Source: an uncultured Algibacter sp. (GTDB lineage Bacteria; Bacteroidota; Bacteroidia; Flavobacteriales; Flavobacteriaceae). From it: 42,649 bases of DNA. The position numbers and the translations under genes were made by a program. Below, piece by piece: positions 26,607 to 33,834 of the stretch; position 1 is the stretch's first letter, and each line of letters begins with the position of its first letter. Below the pieces are notes generated by a model. The model ran no database searches. It had not been told where the DNA came from and saw only the letters and a program-made list of their open reading frames with translations. Location of the stretch: assembly GCA_947502405.1 (NCBI GenBank), contig CANMZT010000022.1, forward strand, positions 1-42,649, given 5' to 3'.

Positions 26607-27698
26607 TTAATCATTTACAATAGATAATAACCTTCTAAAGGCATAAATAGCTGGTCTTCTGCCAGCTCCAGCTTCGGCAATTTCAAGTACATTTTCTTTT
26701 ACCAAAATATCTAAAAGTCGAGTTACACTAGATTTAGGAATGCCTGAATTTCTTGAAAAATAATTAGTAGAAAAAATAGGTTGAATAAAAATAGTATCTA
26801 GACAATGAATAGCATATTGACTATGTGTACTTTCAGTTATTTCTTTCTTAACGGTTTCATATAAGTTAATAATGGCTCTTGTTTTAGTAATATTTTTTTC
26901 TGCTTGTACAATAATGGCATTCATAAAAAACCTGAGCCAATTAGTCCAGATGCCACTATCTGTAATATCTTTTAAAGCATCGTAATATTCCGTTCTATGG
27001 TTTTCTAAGTAATCACTCAAGTAAAAGACAGGTTCGTGAATAATTTTTTTATGATATAAAAACAAGGGTATTAATATTCTACCCATTCTACCATTACCGT
27101 CTAAAAAAGGATGAATAATTTCAAACTGCGCATGCACAATAGCCAATTGTACAATAACATCCAGTTCTTCATGATGCATATAGTTTTCCCAGTTGTTTAA
27201 AGCATCTTTCATTACTGGAACTGCTGGTGGTACAAACCTAGCATTATCTATAGTGGAACCTGGCGCACCTATAAAATTTTGAATACGCCTAAAGTTACCA
27301 GGGTCTGCACTATTACCTCTAACATCTTTCATTAAGGTTTCGTGCATTATACGAATAAGGTTTAAGGTTAGTGGCTTACTTTGCATTTGCTCTCTACCTT
27401 CCCTTAAAGCAATACGATAATTAATAACCTCATAAATATCTCCTTTTTTGTGGTCTTCAACATCTTGGTCGCCCTCATATTCTAATACGTCTCTTAAAGA
27501 AGCTTGTGTACCCTCTATTTTTGAAGACTGCACCGCTTCTTGAGTTCTCAAAGGCGCTAATAACACATCTGGATTAATTACAGATTGTAAAAGTCCATCA
27601 TAACGAGCTATATAACGATTTGCTTTACCCATAAGGTCAATAAGTTTAGACCAATCTATAGCTTCAAGTGGCAAATTATGCGGTAAATAAGGTTCCAT
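26607..27698 (-). CDS. Fic domain protein (AMPylase-like, class II) with C-terminal winged helix
   Basis: 363 aa. The active-site loop HPFLDGNGRMGR (H196-R207) is complete; Fic enzymes transfer AMP or a related group to Tyr/Thr/Ser of a target. An inhibitory helix lies N-terminal to the core, with the class II motif SSKIEG (S58-G63), so the enzyme is self-restrained. Residues 285-363 look like a winged helix-turn-helix (FSTNYFSRNSGIPKSSVTRLLDILVKENVLE), giving a DNA-binding tail. The protein could therefore repress its own gene through the palindromes around it; that is inference. Target unknown. Not paired with a small antitoxin, as expected for class II. Confidence 0.92.
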   Translation of the reverse strand: MEPYLPHNLPLEAIDWSKLIDLMGKANRYIARYDGLLQSVINPDVLLAPLRTQEAVQSSKIEGTQASLRDVLEYEGDQDVEDHKKGDIYEVINYRIALREGREQMQSKPLTLNLIRIMHETLMKDVRGNSADPGNFRRIQNFIGAPGSTIDNARFVPPAVPVMKDALNNWENYMHHEELDVIVQLAIVHAQFEIIHPFLDGNGRMGRILIPLFLYHKKIIHEPVFYLSDYLENHRTEYYDALKDITDSGIWTNWLRFFMNAIIVQAEKNITKTRAIINLYETVKKEITESTHSQYAIHCLDTIFIQPIFSTNYFSRNSGIPKSSVTRLLDILVKENVLEIAEAGAGRRPAIYAFRRLLSIVND

Positions 27699-28532: not shown

Positions 28533-31500
28533 CTAACTATTTTCAACAATAGCTATTTCCTCATCCGTTAAGCCATACAACTTATAAACCATTTGGTCTA
28601 TGTCTTTTTCGGTTTGGTTAATTTGGGTTTGTAGGACTTGGGCTTTTTGTTTGTTCTCTTCAAATAACTCTAACCACTCGAACTCATCTTTTTTGGTGAG
28701 TGTTGGTATAGCCTCTAAACCATCTTTAATACGTAATTTGTTATTTGCTTTTATGGCTTTATTCAACTCTTTTATAAACTCACTAAATTCTAATTCTTGC
28801 CAGTTTTGAAGTTTTTTAGTAAGTTTTTCAATTTTATTTTGCTCTTTATAATAAAGGGAAAATAAACTAACAGACTTATTATACTTACTATGTAGATTAA
28901 TTGCTTTATCAACAAAATGCGATAAATAATTTTCTGGAATATTTTTCTTAATAGGTATAGTATCTATTTTATCTCTTCTGAAGTCATAATATCCACCTTG
29001 TAGTGTAGTGCATATATTTTTTAAATAAAAATAAATTAGTTTTGAATTTAATAAACCCAACAAATCTTTACTATCACTTTTTATATAAAAGTTGTTATCT
29101 GACAGGTAATAACCATTTAAATCTAATTGAAAATTACATTGATTATTTGTTCGTGGATAAACAATTTTAACACCTTCAAAATCTTCATAGTAAGCAATGT
29201 TATCTTGTATTTCAAACCACTTATAAGGTCCAGCTTTTCTACCTATTTGTTCACCATTATTGCGAGGTTTTAAAACTTCATAGAAAGGCTCTAAATATTT
29301 AAGAATTGTTGGATATTGATAAATATTAAGACCTCTCCTTGTGAAAAGTAGATAATCATTGTTATTAGATATGTGATATCTTTTTATTGCTGAACCCAAT
29401 AATATGGGTTTGATTAATTCATTCGTTGCTCCTTCGGAAACTAATTGTTCTTTTTTTGATTCATCAAAAATAAACACTTCGTTTTTCCCTGTTAATACAC
29501 CTCTATTTATTTTACCTTCTACAAATTTAGACAAGCTAATAGTATCTATTTTAATTTTTTCAAGTACCTTTTGGTTGTTTAAAGGAACAAAATTCCACGA
29601 TTCATTTGTTAAAGAATCAAATAGTACTTCGACTTTGTTTATTTCAAGAGTATTAATTGGGTCTGTACTGCTTGTTCTTTTGTTTATTTCAGAATACAAA
29701 AAAGATTTTGCTTTATAATTTGGTTTTTTATTCAGCACATAAATGATGGGATAAGCTGTAGCATCAGAAAAAACTGGATAATCATCAAAATCTAATAATA
29801 ATTCTAAATTTGCTTGATTCTTTATAACTTTTCTTATGTTTTTACCATAAGTAGCTTTTAGAAATTTATTTGGCAGAATAAATGAGAATAAGCCTTTTCC
29901 ATTCATTAAACTTATTCCTTTTTCAATAAAATAAGTATATAAATCTGCAACACTATTGTAACATTTATAATGCTTTTCTAAATATGGCTTAATATCCTTA
30001 AAGAGTTCTTGCCTTACATAAGGCGGATTCCCAATCACCACATCAAAACCACCTTTGTATTGTGTAGCAAAAGCTTTTTTTGTTGTGCAACACATGCTAT
30101 CTATAAGGGTTTGTGTTGCTTTGTTGTGTGCTGGTAACTCGTGCTTATTCCTGTTGGTTTGTACGTATTTTATGGTGTTGTATAGCTGCTCTTCTGTGGT
30201 TATTTCTTTTGGCGGGCTGTACTTTTGTTGCCATAGGGGTTTGTTTTTCTTTTTATCAATGGGCTTAAGCCCATTGTAAGTCCCATTGTGTTGCTCATTA
30301 TTATATACAAATGCCGTGCGTCCTTTTATTTTCTGCATAATGGCTGGTATCTCTTCAATATCACACACCAATACCAAATGAATATGGTCTGCACAAATAT
30401 TATACGCCAGCAGGTTTAGATGGTCTTCTTTTACAATTTTAGAAATGGTTTTACTTATTATAAAATCGCTTTCTGGTGTAAAATAAATAACGTTAGGGTA
30501 TGGATTTGTTCCCAAATCTCTACGTTCTCTTACTTTGTATTTTACCATTCTTTTAGACGTTCTGCTGTCATGAATGGCGGTTGTAATATGGTAAGCTTTT
30601 TTGTGCTGTTCTTTAAATACTTTAGGAAACTGCTCTTGCCAGTTAAAGGCTTTATCGCCTGCTACTGCTTTACTATCTATTAGCGAGTTGCCACACTTTA
30701 TATTGGAACTTAAATCGTTTAATTTTCGGCGTGGTTGTGCGGTGCGTAACCAAAGGGAAAGTTTAGCTATTTCTACAGACTCTTCGTTAAGGTCTACGCC
30801 ATAAATATTGTTTTCTAAAATGGTGTTTTCTATGTCTGGGAATTGAAAACCACCACCTAATACTTTGGTTTTTAGCTCGTCTATATAATTATGTTCTTTT
30901 ATTAAAAAGTCTAATGCTTGGTTTAAAAATGCTCCAGAGCCACAAGCTGGGTCACAGATGGTGAGTTGTAATAACCAATCTCTATAAGTATCTAAAACTG
31001 AGACTAATTTTGTAATGGTACTTTTATTACGGTTCTTTCTGCCTTTAAAATACTCTTCTTCTTTAAAGCCTAATTCAGCTTTCTTTTCTTCACACAGTTT
31101 ACCAACTGTATTTTCTACAATGTATTTGGTAATGTATTTTGGTGTGTAGAAAACACCATCTTTTTTACGCTTCGATTTTTGTTTATCGAACTCACCACCT
31201 TCAATTTCGGCATTTACACTTTCAATTTCATTTAATGAATTTTCAAAAATGTGTCCTAATATGTTAACATCTACTTGACTTTCAAAATCATAGGATGCTA
31301 ACTTATAAGTGTGGTTAGACAATAACTCGTCATCTAACTCTAAGCTATCTAACAACGTATCTTCTTTAAATAAACCACCATTATAAGCATAGATTTCGGC
31401 TCTACTGCTTGTGCCTTTACGTCCTTGGTCTAAAAAATTAAAGTATTGCTTAAAGAGATTATACAATGGTCTTTCATCTCCAAAATCTATATCTGCTTTC

Positions 31501-32357
31501 CACTTATCAATTATTTGTATGGTACTGTTTGGTGGTAATAAACCTCTATCTTCTGCGAAGAAGATAAAAAGAAATCTATCAATTAATTTCTGTGATTTTT
31601 TAAATAAGGTAAGCTTTACATTTTTTTCTAGGCGCTGTTCTATATCAATATCTTCTTGAGACTTCTCGACGACGCTCGAAGTGACACCTTCGTTTTTTAA
31701 TCGCTTTGCATTTCGTTTTACTAAATCTCTGTATAATTCTCTTTTAAAGAGTGAGTAATCTTTATAAAACTGTTTTGTAATTTTTTCTTCTTCTACTAAA
31801 GATGCTTCCTTTAGCTTTAAAGGCATATTGTTTAAAATATTATCCTTTTGTAAGCATAAGTAGAATAATTCAAAACGTTCTTTTGTTAATTCAAATAAAT
31901 TAAATGCTTCAAACTCTGTGGCATCATTAATATAGAATCGTAATTTTTCAAAATTAGAAGTGATGACATAAACACACCCTTTTTGATTAGCCTTATAATC
32001 AAACGCTTGTTTGCGTATGCTTTCTAAATCTTTGGTATTTGTACCTTTTAATTCTATAACGCCAATAGCAATGTCGTTATTTAAAATGGCACCATCAGCT
32101 TTACGCGCATTATTTTGGTTTTTATATTCTGCTACAAGGTTAAAATCTGCTTTAGGTTTTAAGGTGTAACCTAAAATATTTACAAATAATTCTGTTAGAA
32201 AAATACCTTGATACTCTTCTTCTTTAGAACTTCTAATATTATCCTGTATGGTAGGGTTTAAAAAATACTTGGTATATTTTTTATAGGCTTTATCTAAAAC
32301 TTGTTGGTCTTGTAATTTTAATTGTTGTTTTAAGACTGATGGTTGATATAAAGCCAT
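28533..32357 (-). CDS. Type IIG restriction-modification enzyme with embedded Y1/HUH transposase domain
   Basis: 1274 aa, one polypeptide that cuts and methylates DNA. Order: N-terminal PD-(D/E)xK nuclease (D88, E102, K104 in ADGAIL...IELKG); helical linker with FFAEDRGLLP near 267 and DGVFYTPKYITKYI (400-413); gamma-class adenine methylase with motif I DPACGSGAFL (469-478) and motif IV NPPY (777-780); C-terminal TaqI/Eco57I-like specificity region to the end. Between FPKVF (577-581) and KGGFDVVIGNPPY lies an extra domain of about 185 residues (582-767). It has AYHITTAIHDSR, HUH motif HIHLVL (H658, H660), LWQQKYSPP and IKYVQTNRNKHEL with candidate catalytic Tyr731, matching REP-associated Y1 transposases. 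The frame is intact throughout. Confidence 0.9.
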   Translation of the reverse strand: MALYQPSVLKQQLKLQDQQVLDKAYKKYTKYFLNPTIQDNIRSSKEEEYQGIFLTELFVNILGYTLKPKADFNLVAEYKNQNNARKADGAILNNDIAIGVIELKGTNTKDLESIRKQAFDYKANQKGCVYVITSNFEKLRFYINDATEFEAFNLFELTKERFELFYLCLQKDNILNNMPLKLKEASLVEEEKITKQFYKDYSLFKRELYRDLVKRNAKRLKNEGVTSSVVEKSQEDIDIEQRLEKNVKLTLFKKSQKLIDRFLFIFFAEDRGLLPPNSTIQIIDKWKADIDFGDERPLYNLFKQYFNFLDQGRKGTSSRAEIYAYNGGLFKEDTLLDSLELDDELLSNHTYKLASYDFESQVDVNILGHIFENSLNEIESVNAEIEGGEFDKQKSKRKKDGVFYTPKYITKYIVENTVGKLCEEKKAELGFKEEEYFKGRKNRNKSTITKLVSVLDTYRDWLLQLTICDPACGSGAFLNQALDFLIKEHNYIDELKTKVLGGGFQFPDIENTILENNIYGVDLNEESVEIAKLSLWLRTAQPRRKLNDLSSNIKCGNSLIDSKAVAGDKAFNWQEQFPKVFKEQHKKAYHITTAIHDSRTSKRMVKYKVRERRDLGTNPYPNVIYFTPESDFIISKTISKIVKEDHLNLLAYNICADHIHLVLVCDIEEIPAIMQKIKGRTAFVYNNEQHNGTYNGLKPIDKKKNKPLWQQKYSPPKEITTEEQLYNTIKYVQTNRNKHELPAHNKATQTLIDSMCCTTKKAFATQYKGGFDVVIGNPPYVRQELFKDIKPYLEKHYKCYNSVADLYTYFIEKGISLMNGKGLFSFILPNKFLKATYGKNIRKVIKNQANLELLLDFDDYPVFSDATAYPIIYVLNKKPNYKAKSFLYSEINKRTSSTDPINTLEINKVEVLFDSLTNESWNFVPLNNQKVLEKIKIDTISLSKFVEGKINRGVLTGKNEVFIFDESKKEQLVSEGATNELIKPILLGSAIKRYHISNNNDYLLFTRRGLNIYQYPTILKYLEPFYEVLKPRNNGEQIGRKAGPYKWFEIQDNIAYYEDFEGVKIVYPRTNNQCNFQLDLNGYYLSDNNFYIKSDSKDLLGLLNSKLIYFYLKNICTTLQGGYYDFRRDKIDTIPIKKNIPENYLSHFVDKAINLHSKYNKSVSLFSLYYKEQNKIEKLTKKLQNWQELEFSEFIKELNKAIKANNKLRIKDGLEAIPTLTKKDEFEWLELFEENKQKAQVLQTQINQTEKDIDQMVYKLYGLTDEEIAIVENS
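30057..30614 (-). mobile_element. Y1/HUH (TnpA_REP-like) domain inserted in the restriction enzyme gene
   Basis: The segment coding residues 582-767 of the type IIG enzyme. It contains the HIH codons at 30378-30386 and Tyr731 at 30165-30167. The flanking enzyme reads through smoothly on both sides: FPKVF before, GGFDVVIGNPPY after. No separate start, stop or terminal repeats are visible, so it behaves as an embedded domain, not a free insertion sequence. Known REP transposases of this family make single-strand cuts in hairpin repeats; activity of this one is unknown. Confidence 0.7.
30258..30277. repeat. Perfect 20-bp palindrome inside the HUH domain
   Basis: CAATGGGCTT followed by its exact complement. 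It encodes YNGLKPI (residues 694-700) in a Lys/Asn-rich loop before LWQQKY that is longer than I expect for the family. It could be a REP-like unit captured in frame. Confidence 0.6.
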
Positions 32358-32995: not shown

Positions 32996-33298
32996 TTATT
33001 TCAATCGTTTTTTTATATCCATTCTTTGATTAAGTATTCTAACGATTTCTACAATATCATCCTCAACTTTTCGGTAGAATATTAAGTGCGATTTAATTTT
33101 TGCTACACGATAATTTTTTCGGGTGTCTTCTACAGATTTTCCATTCATGTAATTATCAGAAATAAACTCAATTTCTTCAATTATCAAATTGTAATATCTA
33201 TCTGCTTGCTTTTTTGACCATTTATCAAAGGTATAAATCCAAATATCATTTAAATCATCAATAGCTTGTTTGCTAATTCGATATTTGTTTTTACTCAT
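32996..33298 (-). CDS. parE: ParE/RelE-type toxin
   Basis: 100 aa, ParE-like toxin of a type II toxin-antitoxin pair. Typical pattern: MSKNKYRISKQAIDDLNDIWIYTFDKWSKKQADRYYNLI, then GKSVEDTRKNYRVAKIKSHLIFYR and a final IVEIVRILNQRMD strand. ParE proteins usually poison DNA gyrase; RelE relatives cut mRNA, and the KSHLIFYR form favours ParE. The start overlaps the antitoxin stop by 4 bp, the standard antitoxin-first order. Confidence 0.9.
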   Translation of the reverse strand: MSKNKYRISKQAIDDLNDIWIYTFDKWSKKQADRYYNLIIEEIEFISDNYMNGKSVEDTRKNYRVAKIKSHLIFYRKVEDDIVEIVRILNQRMDIKKRLK

Positions 33299-33537
33299 GA
33301 ATGTTGGCGATGTAATTCAGCTAGGTTTTGTTTTGAGTCAAAATTGTCAACAAATCCACTTTGTTCGCCAACTTCTAGAGCTTTAATTAATTCTTTTTCT
33401 TTTTTTTCTTCTCGTTCTAACAATCGTAATGCAGAACGTATAACTTCGCTAACAGAACCATATCTACCAGACTTGACTTCTTTTTTGATAAAATCTTCAA
33501 AATGATTTCCGAGCGATATTGATGTGTTTTTTCCCAT
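33295..33537 (-). CDS. parD: ParD-type antitoxin
   Basis: 80 aa. The N-terminal ribbon-helix-helix NTSISLGNHFEDFIKKEVKSGRYGSVSEVIRSALRLLE is the classic ParD DNA-binding fold; the C-terminal acidic tail (KALEVGEQSGFVDNFDSKQNLAELHRQ) wraps the toxin. It should repress its own promoter, where a fitting operator is visible (33562-33585). Confidence 0.92.
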   Translation of the reverse strand: MGKNTSISLGNHFEDFIKKEVKSGRYGSVSEVIRSALRLLEREEKKEKELIKALEVGEQSGFVDNFDSKQNLAELHRQHS

Positions 33538-33585: not shown

Positions 33586-33676
33586 ATTGCAAGTGCGAGT
33601 TAAAAATCATTTTAGAAAACTTACCAAGTTAGATAAACCAACCCATAGTTTTTAAGACAGACTTTAGCAGATTTGC

Positions 33677-33834
33677 CCGCGTTAGGGATAGAAACGGCAT
33701 CCTTTTTTAAAACCTTAAGGAAAATGACTTTCTTGGAAACTTTAATTTGAGAGATTGTTACGGTCGTTCCTCCCTCACAATGACGTTTTTAAAAAGATAT
33801 AGTGGATAGCCCGACCCCTTGGGGTAACGCCCAA
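33677..33834 (-). repeat. Dispersed repeat family A with nested family B, copy 7
   Basis: GCGTTAGGGATAGAAACGGC (33679-33698) to TAGCCCGACCCC...GGGTAACGCCCAAATG (33807-33836), with family B unit AGATTGTTACGGTCGTTCC...ACAATGACG (33752-33785) in the middle. The best preserved nested copy. Confidence 0.85.

Follow-up and report, generated by a model that had tools for sequence, protein, structure and literature searches.

An in-frame REP-transposase-type domain and its candidate palindromic substrate in a type IIG restriction-modification gene of the Flavobacteriaceae

Introduction

What might a transposase-like nickase be doing inside a restriction enzyme? The question is raised by a gene on contig CANMZT010000022.1 (assembly GCA_947502405.1) of an uncultured Algibacter sp. 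of the Flavobacteriaceae, of which positions 1 to 42,649 of the forward strand were analysed and are referred to here as the window. The gene encodes a type IIG restriction-modification (RM) enzyme that exceeds its counterparts without a Y1 domain by an insert of 186 residues, and this insert resembles the REP-associated tyrosine transposases (RAYTs), the Y1 HUH proteins that accompany repetitive extragenic palindromic (REP) sequences. The interpretation that we regard as probable, with considerable room for error, is that the gene holds an in-frame REP–RAYT unit, which occupies a tolerant loop of the RM enzyme and works on hairpins located within its own gene and nearby. A defence gene would then seem to serve at the same time as host to a mobile repeat system, which bears on two open questions, how REPs spread and why RAYTs persist.

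A Y1 HUH domain within the restriction enzyme

A first-pass annotation, made from the sequence alone, had read residues 582-767 as a REP-type Y1 transposase domain, and this identification stands. The segment, which corresponds exactly to positions 30057-30614, matches Pfam Y1_Tnp (PF01797) at E = 8.4e-9 when searched alone (36 bits, cut-off 23) and at 9.3e-8 within the whole protein, and NCBIfam REP_Tyr_transpos at 1e-11, yet with 44.9 bits, under the equivalog cut-off of 80. The motifs lie where they had been placed, with FPKVF at residues 577-581, the YHIT start from residue 589, the catalytic tyrosine at Y731 and the others as given in Table 1. Pfam at E values up to 1 returns Y1_Tnp only for the insert, with no intein or homing-endonuclease domain, and this is the sole Y1_Tnp found in the window's genome.

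An AlphaFold (AF2) model of the domain, built from 55 alignment rows, has a predicted local distance difference test score (pLDDT) of 88.3, and its top 29 Foldseek matches in the PDB are all IS200/IS605-type transposases (IS608, ISDra2 and others), including the RAYT–REP complex 4er8. When the model was extended by part of the methylase the same elements formed, and the top matches were adenine methylases, led by CamA and BrxX/PglX. The clustering of H658, H660 and Y731, which the annotation had named as a check, is not fairly judged from a monomer model, because the tyrosine of IS200/IS605 dimers acts in trans.

Conservation among the embedded domains suggests an intact active site. K678 and the catalytic residues of the HUH motif are invariant in all 76 aligned embedded domains (window's copy counted), as are W709, Y731, N735 and H739 in the 71 that cover those columns, so that the HUH motif, the single catalytic tyrosine and the asparagine four residues further on that characterise Y1 HUH proteins of the RAYT kind are all present. 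A subfamily signature, YHITTAIHDSRTSKRM, is conserved at R599 (76/76), S601 and M604 (75/75 each), R603 (74/75) and S598 (73/76). Among six pairs drawn from four close genes, with several synonymous distances saturated, the ratio of non-synonymous to synonymous substitution was 0.14-0.23 in the Y1 domain and 0.05-0.06 in the N-terminal part; judged by these ratios, the domain is under purifying selection. Residues 582-767 are on these grounds a complete and apparently intact Y1 HUH domain of the REP-transposase type, with predicted activity.

The host enzyme is equally recognisable. Pfam finds Eco57I (2.4e-43), TaqI_C (7.8e-15), N6_Mtase and MmeI_Mtase in the whole protein, the PADLOC model REase_MTase_IIG (PDLC03609) matches it at E = 4.8e-284, and the Eco57I-type methylase and the specificity domain lie on a single chain, as in type IIG enzymes. 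Residues 88-104 are presumably the nuclease motif, judging from the general PD-(D/E)xK pattern, and we take DPACGSGAF and GGFDVVIGNPPY to be methylase motifs I and IV. The reading frame from 28533 to 32357 is open, which, with the invariant catalytic residues and the PADLOC match, agrees with the earlier view that the protein has no stop and that the motifs of nuclease, methylase and HUH domain look intact.

Table 1. Positions of the RM gene, its motifs, the inserted domain and the palindromic sequences in the window
Feature	Position	Strand	Basis or remark
Type IIG RM enzyme gene with embedded Y1 domain	28533..32357	-	Open frame, 1274 aa
Candidate PD-(D/E)xK nuclease motif DGAILNNDIAIGVIELK, residues 88-104	32046..32096	-	Position from translation
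Methylase motif I, DPACGSGAF, residues 469-477	30927..30953	-	Position from translation
Inserted Y1 HUH (RAYT-type) domain with linkers, residues 582-767	30057..30614	-	Pfam, NCBIfam, AF2, Foldseek, gap in homologues
Subfamily signature YHITTAIHDSRTSKRM, residues 589-604	30546..30593	-	Conservation in embedded domains
HUH motif DHIH, residues 657-660	30378..30389	-	D657, H658, H660 76/76
Palindrome half copy ACAATGGGACTT, just upstream in reading direction	30278..30289	-	Sequence
Perfect 20-bp palindrome CAATGGGCTTAAGCCCATTG, in frame through NGLKPI	30257..30276		Helix C–strand 4 loop of the Y1 domain
LWQQKY motif, residues 708-713	30219..30236	-	W709 71/71
Catalytic tyrosine helix YVQTNRNKH, residues 731-739	30141..30167	-	Y731, N735, H739 71/71
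Methylase motif IV, GGFDVVIGNPPY, residues 769-780, immediately past the insert	30018..30053	-	Position from translation

Presence and absence at a single site

In the alignment of homologues an abrupt gap runs from residue 582 to 768. The flanks had been supposed to be almost adjacent in ordinary enzymes of this type, and the spacing from GNSL to NPPY bears this out, being 36 residues in 18 of 20 homologues without the Y1 domain, 45 in one and 29 in one. These 20 comprise the Y1-less members of a sample chosen only on its N-terminal part, plus five Y1-less loci from another homologue search. For that sample, 395 genomes of the phylum were searched, 23 matched (the window's included) and 20 of the 22 others were retrieved, of which five carry the Y1 domain. 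The region is absent from all 20 Y1-less genes at that site, and the homologues do not have it as a regular part of the methylase; in the cleanest pair with and without it, L086 and L049, the flanks share 80% and 81% DNA identity and enclose 579 bp and 3 bp, respectively.

A quick-method tree of the N-terminal part, with several long branches, comprises 96 rows, of which 76 carry the domain and 20 do not. It requires 16 changes between presence and absence, 13 of them forced by starred branches, against a mean of 18.5 with shuffled labels, 20 of 500 shuffles giving as few as observed. The labels are scattered over the tree, and the domain has therefore been gained, lost or exchanged repeatedly at a single site. 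A relative of the insert occurs in only 7 of 397 genomes of the family (window's genome counted) and is uncommon there; it is nonetheless no peculiarity of the window's genome, as 77 further RM open reading frames (ORFs) with a Y1 domain, mainly from Bacteroidota, were found after de-duplication.

Pairwise distances of the N part, the Y1 domain and the C part correlate weakly (rho 0.12, 0.14 and -0.01 in 49 rows, some of them saturated), values reached by 102, 39 and 525 of 999 permutations; co-inheritance of the three parts was dropped as an explanation, and the weak correlations are read as discordance only. A viral, phage or plasmid origin was likewise set aside, no relative having been found among viral contigs, plasmids or phages.

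Palindromes within the reading frame

The window's gene also contains the perfect palindrome CAATGGGCTTAAGCCCATTG, which the first-pass annotation had not remarked upon and which maps to a low-pLDDT inner loop of the Y1 model. It is the single copy in the 3.79-Mb genome when up to 3 mismatches are allowed, it appeared in none of 100 shuffled windows, and as single-stranded DNA the hairpin was computed at -8.3 kcal/mol in an 80-nt stretch, with 5 of 200 shuffles equally good. Rfam at the gathering score gives no RNA family at the palindrome site, its matches elsewhere in the window being one tRNA and two Flavo-1 RNAs. The idea that the window's own genome has REPs of this family dispersed through it was dropped on account of the single copy.

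Palindromes of the CAATGGGCTTAAGCCCATTG kind, varied in arms and centres, were present in all of the first eleven relatives, nine of them at the same spot in the domain, that of L046 behind the domain and that of L055 ahead of it; L053 and L055 have imperfect ones. A scan of genome contigs with 11 domains gave 120 relatives, and the best 80 of the 120 come from Bacteroidota, Chlorobiota, Ignavibacteria, one Neomarinimicrobiota metagenome-assembled genome (MAG) and one Gracilibacteria MAG. Among these 80 loci, 77 lie in RM sequence, some in ORFs that are cut or broken, and three are free-standing (L125, L129 and L141). Pooled with other genome loci and de-duplicated, the 80 yielded a comparison set of 77 Y1-bearing RM ORFs, 62 of them from the 80, and 21 Y1-less RM ORFs.

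In this set the palindrome motif lies in frame in 64 of the 77 Y1-bearing ORFs (162 copies, with 1.9 expected from codon shuffling) and in none of the 21 Y1-less ones. If any perfect palindrome of at least 16 bp is counted, the figures are 68 of 77 and 4 of 21, with 145 and 4 such palindromes observed and 7.9 and 1.35 expected. Genes hold from 0 to 11 copies of the motif, and the commonest site is the loop between helix C and strand 4, where 64 mapped copies fall in one 25-residue bin.

The arms vary and the pairing is kept. Column pair 8/13, which was left free in the search pattern, pairs in 162 of 162 copies with all four pair types represented (shuffled mean 43.6), the equally free pair 10/11 in 123 of 162 (shuffled mean 66.5), and 113 of the 162 copies are perfect. 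The 177 copies with enough flank in the best 80 of 120 loci are read in frames 0, 1 and 2 in 6, 82 and 89 cases. A frame-0 stop is present in 74 of the 162 pooled copies, and the other 88 use the three frames 5, 52 and 31 times. The commonest flanks, a preceding AA and a following TC or CC, occur in both main frames; among 152 distinct contexts, A stands at -2 in 114 and at -1 in 125, +1 is T or C in 124 and +2 is C in 101. Because the arms covary, and because more than one frame is used to read the same DNA, it is the DNA palindrome that is kept and not its peptide.

The 68 copies outside the Y1 domain lie in variable loops, falling at a few sites that recur, and their mean occupancy in Y1-less homologues is 0.38, compared with 0.90 for random runs. 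None of the 57 of 77 ORFs retained by strict motifs has palindromes flanking the Y1 domain on both sides. Inspection of seven ORFs by eye showed palindrome-like translated stretches upstream in six (L105, L106, L108, L112, L147 and L149), located in a methylase loop and not at the domain edge.

Two observations on individual genes may be added. The Y1 loop of L040 exceeds that of its close relative L041 by 48 nt, made up of four 12-nt half-palindrome units beside the palindrome, the last of them varied. The RM gene with Y1 domain in the Gracilibacteria MAG (L128:951-4583) is one frame of 1211 codons under code 25, in which TGA is Gly, and is broken under code 11.

Palindromes across genomes

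The palindromes also co-occur with the embedded domain across genomes. In a 25-genome count that included both pieces of broken genes and excluded G103 (domain fused to CobB, 4 copies), the 11 genomes with an RM-embedded domain held 22 copies, 17 of them within the RM gene, and the 13 genomes without it held 2, both imperfect. Of 38 genomes hand-picked from those of the named loci among the best 80 of 120, 37 contain copies, 271 in total, with 115 in the Y1-bearing ORF. A PF01797 census of 43 chosen genomes and the window's identified seven in which the embedded domain is the only match, and all seven have palindromes (1, 1, 2, 1, 9, 35 and 4), whereas of ten genomes with another Y1_Tnp but not the embedded domain eight are palindrome-free, including one with 14 matches, and two have one imperfect copy each. 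Some of the genomes counted are incomplete MAGs, and the association between palindrome and embedded domain, as read from these sequences, is strong but not proof.

In 14 regions taken from six genomes, the copies were intergenic, in short doubtful ORFs, or in frame within other proteins. An MmeI-type enzyme (L247:2122-5022, + strand) has two in-frame palindromes, one of them in the loop preceding NPPF, and SpoIIE-type phosphatases at L254 and L255 (two by Pfam, one more by eye) have in-frame palindromes mostly in one linker.

Proposed mechanism and alternatives

From the domain and its conservation, the empty sites, the palindromes with their covariation and the co-occurrence of the two, we infer a course of hairpin binding, cleavage and copying, and a reason for persistence. 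The RAYT, a Y1 HUH nickase-ligase, would form a folded domain within a tolerant loop immediately ahead of methylase motif IV, and its palindromic substrate would be part of the coding sequence, in the window's gene at the helix C–strand 4 loop. The gene would pass through a single-stranded state, either in DNA taken up or on the lagging strand, where IS200/IS605 relatives act (PMC6006769), and the palindrome could then fold to a hairpin. The Y1 domain might bind this hairpin, cut beside its foot by way of Y731 and rejoin the end elsewhere, so that over time palindromes would be copied into loops of the same gene, in any frame left open, and in some genomes into other places too. What is seen now, copies in loops, open frames and covarying arms, would be the remainder after filtering for a working protein. 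Loss of an RM gene harms the cell, a property known as addiction. An RM gene may be a good home because of that harm and because it moves between strains, and the RAYT would be kept mainly because such a gene is hard to lose and travels well.

Of the roles that the annotation had suggested, REP processing and domain-level mobility suit the palindromes with covarying arms in the same gene, the scattered presence and absence at one exact site and the RAYT domains of another type in other restriction enzymes; for the third, sensing of foreign single-stranded DNA, nothing was found that points to it.

Several observations weigh against this mechanism. The palindrome motif was derived from Y1-bearing genes and the Y1-less comparison comprises 21 ORFs only. 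Thirteen of the 77 Y1-bearing ORFs are without the motif; variant or shorter perfect palindromes, of at least 14 bp, occur in eight of them, L276 has A/T-rich 14-bp ones only, and L086, L100, L130 and L146 have no palindrome of at least 14 bp, L100 and L146 being partial ORFs. The frame-0 stop accounts only in part for the rarity of that frame. Just 21 of the 68 copies outside the domain lie in columns nearly absent from Y1-less homologues, and not all copies therefore resemble clean insertions. The GTAG/GTGG foot of REPs was not seen in the 152 distinct contexts, and no recent gain of a whole palindrome was found, L105 and L106, the sole close pair tested, having no insertion between them. 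Several copy-rich genomes also encode other Y1 genes. Finally, REPs are expected in many dispersed copies, and the window's genome has one (several relatives have 9-36), hence no sign of recent movement there.

A rather unlikely explanation is that the domain has been domesticated as a regulator or sensor, which no longer moves DNA and instead binds a single-stranded hairpin, of its own gene or foreign, to control the expression or action of the restriction enzyme. The conserved catalytic residues and purifying selection would suit such a role, as would the single palindrome of the window's genome, lying inside the gene, and the concentration of copies in the helix C–strand 4 loop; it fits poorly, however, with copy numbers of 0 to 11 per gene, with the palindromes that some genomes have in other genes and between genes, and with an invariant tyrosine that mere binding would not need. 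It is improbable that the Y1 domain and the hairpins serve instead to shuffle modules, favouring exchange of the specificity half at the C terminus, where swapping sets in directly after the insert. The insert does sit where the conserved N half meets the swapped C half, and between the window's gene and L050 the divergence is 4% for the N part, 21% for Y1 and 68% for the C part, but four of five Y1-less pairs show the same contrast (N part 71-85% identical, C part 38-40%; 78% and 64% in the fifth), and the Y1 domain is therefore dispensable for the swap. We give still scanter credence to the notion that other RAYTs of the cell move the palindromes, with the embedded Y1 domain a bystander that offers a tolerant loop. 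In-frame REP insertions are known in RAYT and other genes (PMC6006769, PMC3733652), and some copy-rich genomes do have other Y1 genes, yet palindromes are present in the seven genomes in which no Y1_Tnp other than the embedded domain was detected, and are absent from the genome with 14 other Y1 matches and from the 21 Y1-less homologues. An assembly or frame artefact, in favour of which nothing was found, is next to impossible, since 57 of the 77 Y1-bearing RM ORFs contain, within a single open frame, the full set of Y1 motifs and then NPPY, and many of the loci come from named isolates, comparative data that already refute it.

The REP–RAYT unit that we favour may belong to a wider pattern, as RAYT domains occur in at least three different restriction genes: the family of embedded domains described here, a second type IIG enzyme (L281) and an HsdR subunit (L280). 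It is conceivable, if on balance doubtful, that restriction enzymes are a recurrent home of in-frame REP–RAYT units, forming a composite selfish element in which nickase, hairpin substrate and a hard-to-lose defence enzyme share one frame, RM addiction keeping the transposase and the HUH domain rewriting its carrier gene. Should the REP–RAYT reading be right, a working single-strand nickase can be part of a defence enzyme, and coding sequence, in addition to intergenic DNA, would be a main habitat of a REP-like family. As enzyme and candidate substrate lie in one gene, and some genomes have a single palindrome and a single Y1, cognate recognition and copying are directly testable.

Related domains and neighbouring genes

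Related Y1 domains were met outside RM genes as well. At L055:6899-8761 (- strand) one is C-terminal on a CobB-like protein, with a palindrome at either end; the Fluviicola loci L125 and L129 have a free-standing Y1 domain and one palindrome each, and the free-standing L141 is degenerate, without the W and Y motifs. Just past the stop of L125, 16 of 17 bases resemble the RM codons behind the insert by eye, while tblastn of the flanks gave nothing significant, and this likeness can be taken as a hint only.

The second type IIG enzyme, L281:2668-7038 (- strand, 1457 aa), has its RAYT-like domain, of another type, before methylase motif I (22.6 bits, cut-off 23), with REP-like inverted and direct repeats of its own on either side of that domain. 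The type I restriction subunit HsdR at L280:2988-6869 (+ strand, 1294 aa) has a Y1_Tnp of another type at residues 730-813. Outside restriction genes, L282:2360-3940 and L283:2353-3831 (both + strand) each encode, as a single open frame, a Y1_Tnp followed by coproporphyrinogen III oxidase (HemF), and Y1 matches fall in ORFs of similar length (490-542 aa) in other census genomes.

In the window, the RM gene adjoins a Fic protein gene (26607-27698, - strand; PADLOC SoFic model, 1.5e-113), and a ParE toxin identified by Pfam (32996-33537, - strand) lies between it and dnaN. The ORF upstream of and overlapping that of ParE is ParD antitoxin-like by eye. The two Flavo-1 RNAs above the Rfam gathering score are at 902-1054 and 33670-33820, both on the + strand.

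Comparison with known systems

The closest known systems are the RAYT or TnpA-REP proteins with their REPs (REPtrons, e.g. 4ER8), with which the embedded domain shares the Y1 HUH core, the DHxH, W and Y-x3-N motifs and the fold. The perfect palindromes are as in the second REP group (PMC8266576), and the L055 domain is palindrome-flanked at both ends. Like RAYT genes, the RM genes have palindromes in or near them, the window's gene included (64 of 77 against 0 of 21), and the palindrome, at 20 bp and with covarying arms, is within the 20-40 bp of REPs. The domain differs in being an internal part of a restriction enzyme and not a free-standing protein, in the many palindromes within coding sequence, in the absence of the GTAG foot among the contexts compared, and in a Y motif of the form Y-x3-NR-x-KH where RAYTs have Y-x3-NP. 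E. coli TnpA-REP is recorded as processing single-stranded REPs in vitro (PMC8266576).

Within the classification of Quentin et al. 2018 (PMC6006769), TnpA-Y1 subclass 2.4 likewise occurs in Bacteroidetes among others. Its HuH motif is NHxH, its Y motif is YIxNNP, and strand 3 and helix C enclose its variable insertion, whereas the embedded domain has DHxH, YxxxNR and a palindrome loop between helix C and strand 4. That survey dropped a few unexpectedly long proteins as gene fusions or annotation errors. Among the literature matches listed, no title or abstract opening placed a RAYT inside a restriction enzyme, protein-architecture databases lying outside the scope of that search.

With other type IIG enzymes (REase_MTase_IIG, Eco57I/TaqI_C) the window's protein shares the whole-protein match and the methylase motifs, and it differs in the 186-residue Y1 domain. 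REPs are already known in frame in RAYT genes (subclass 2.4) and also within other genes (PMC6006769, PMC3733652), and Rickettsia palindromic elements and intragenic REPs (PMC3733652) are similarly in-frame palindromic units in genes; in the system described here a single reading frame, in a way that the compared passages of PMC3733652 do not describe, holds both the palindrome and its presumed enzyme.

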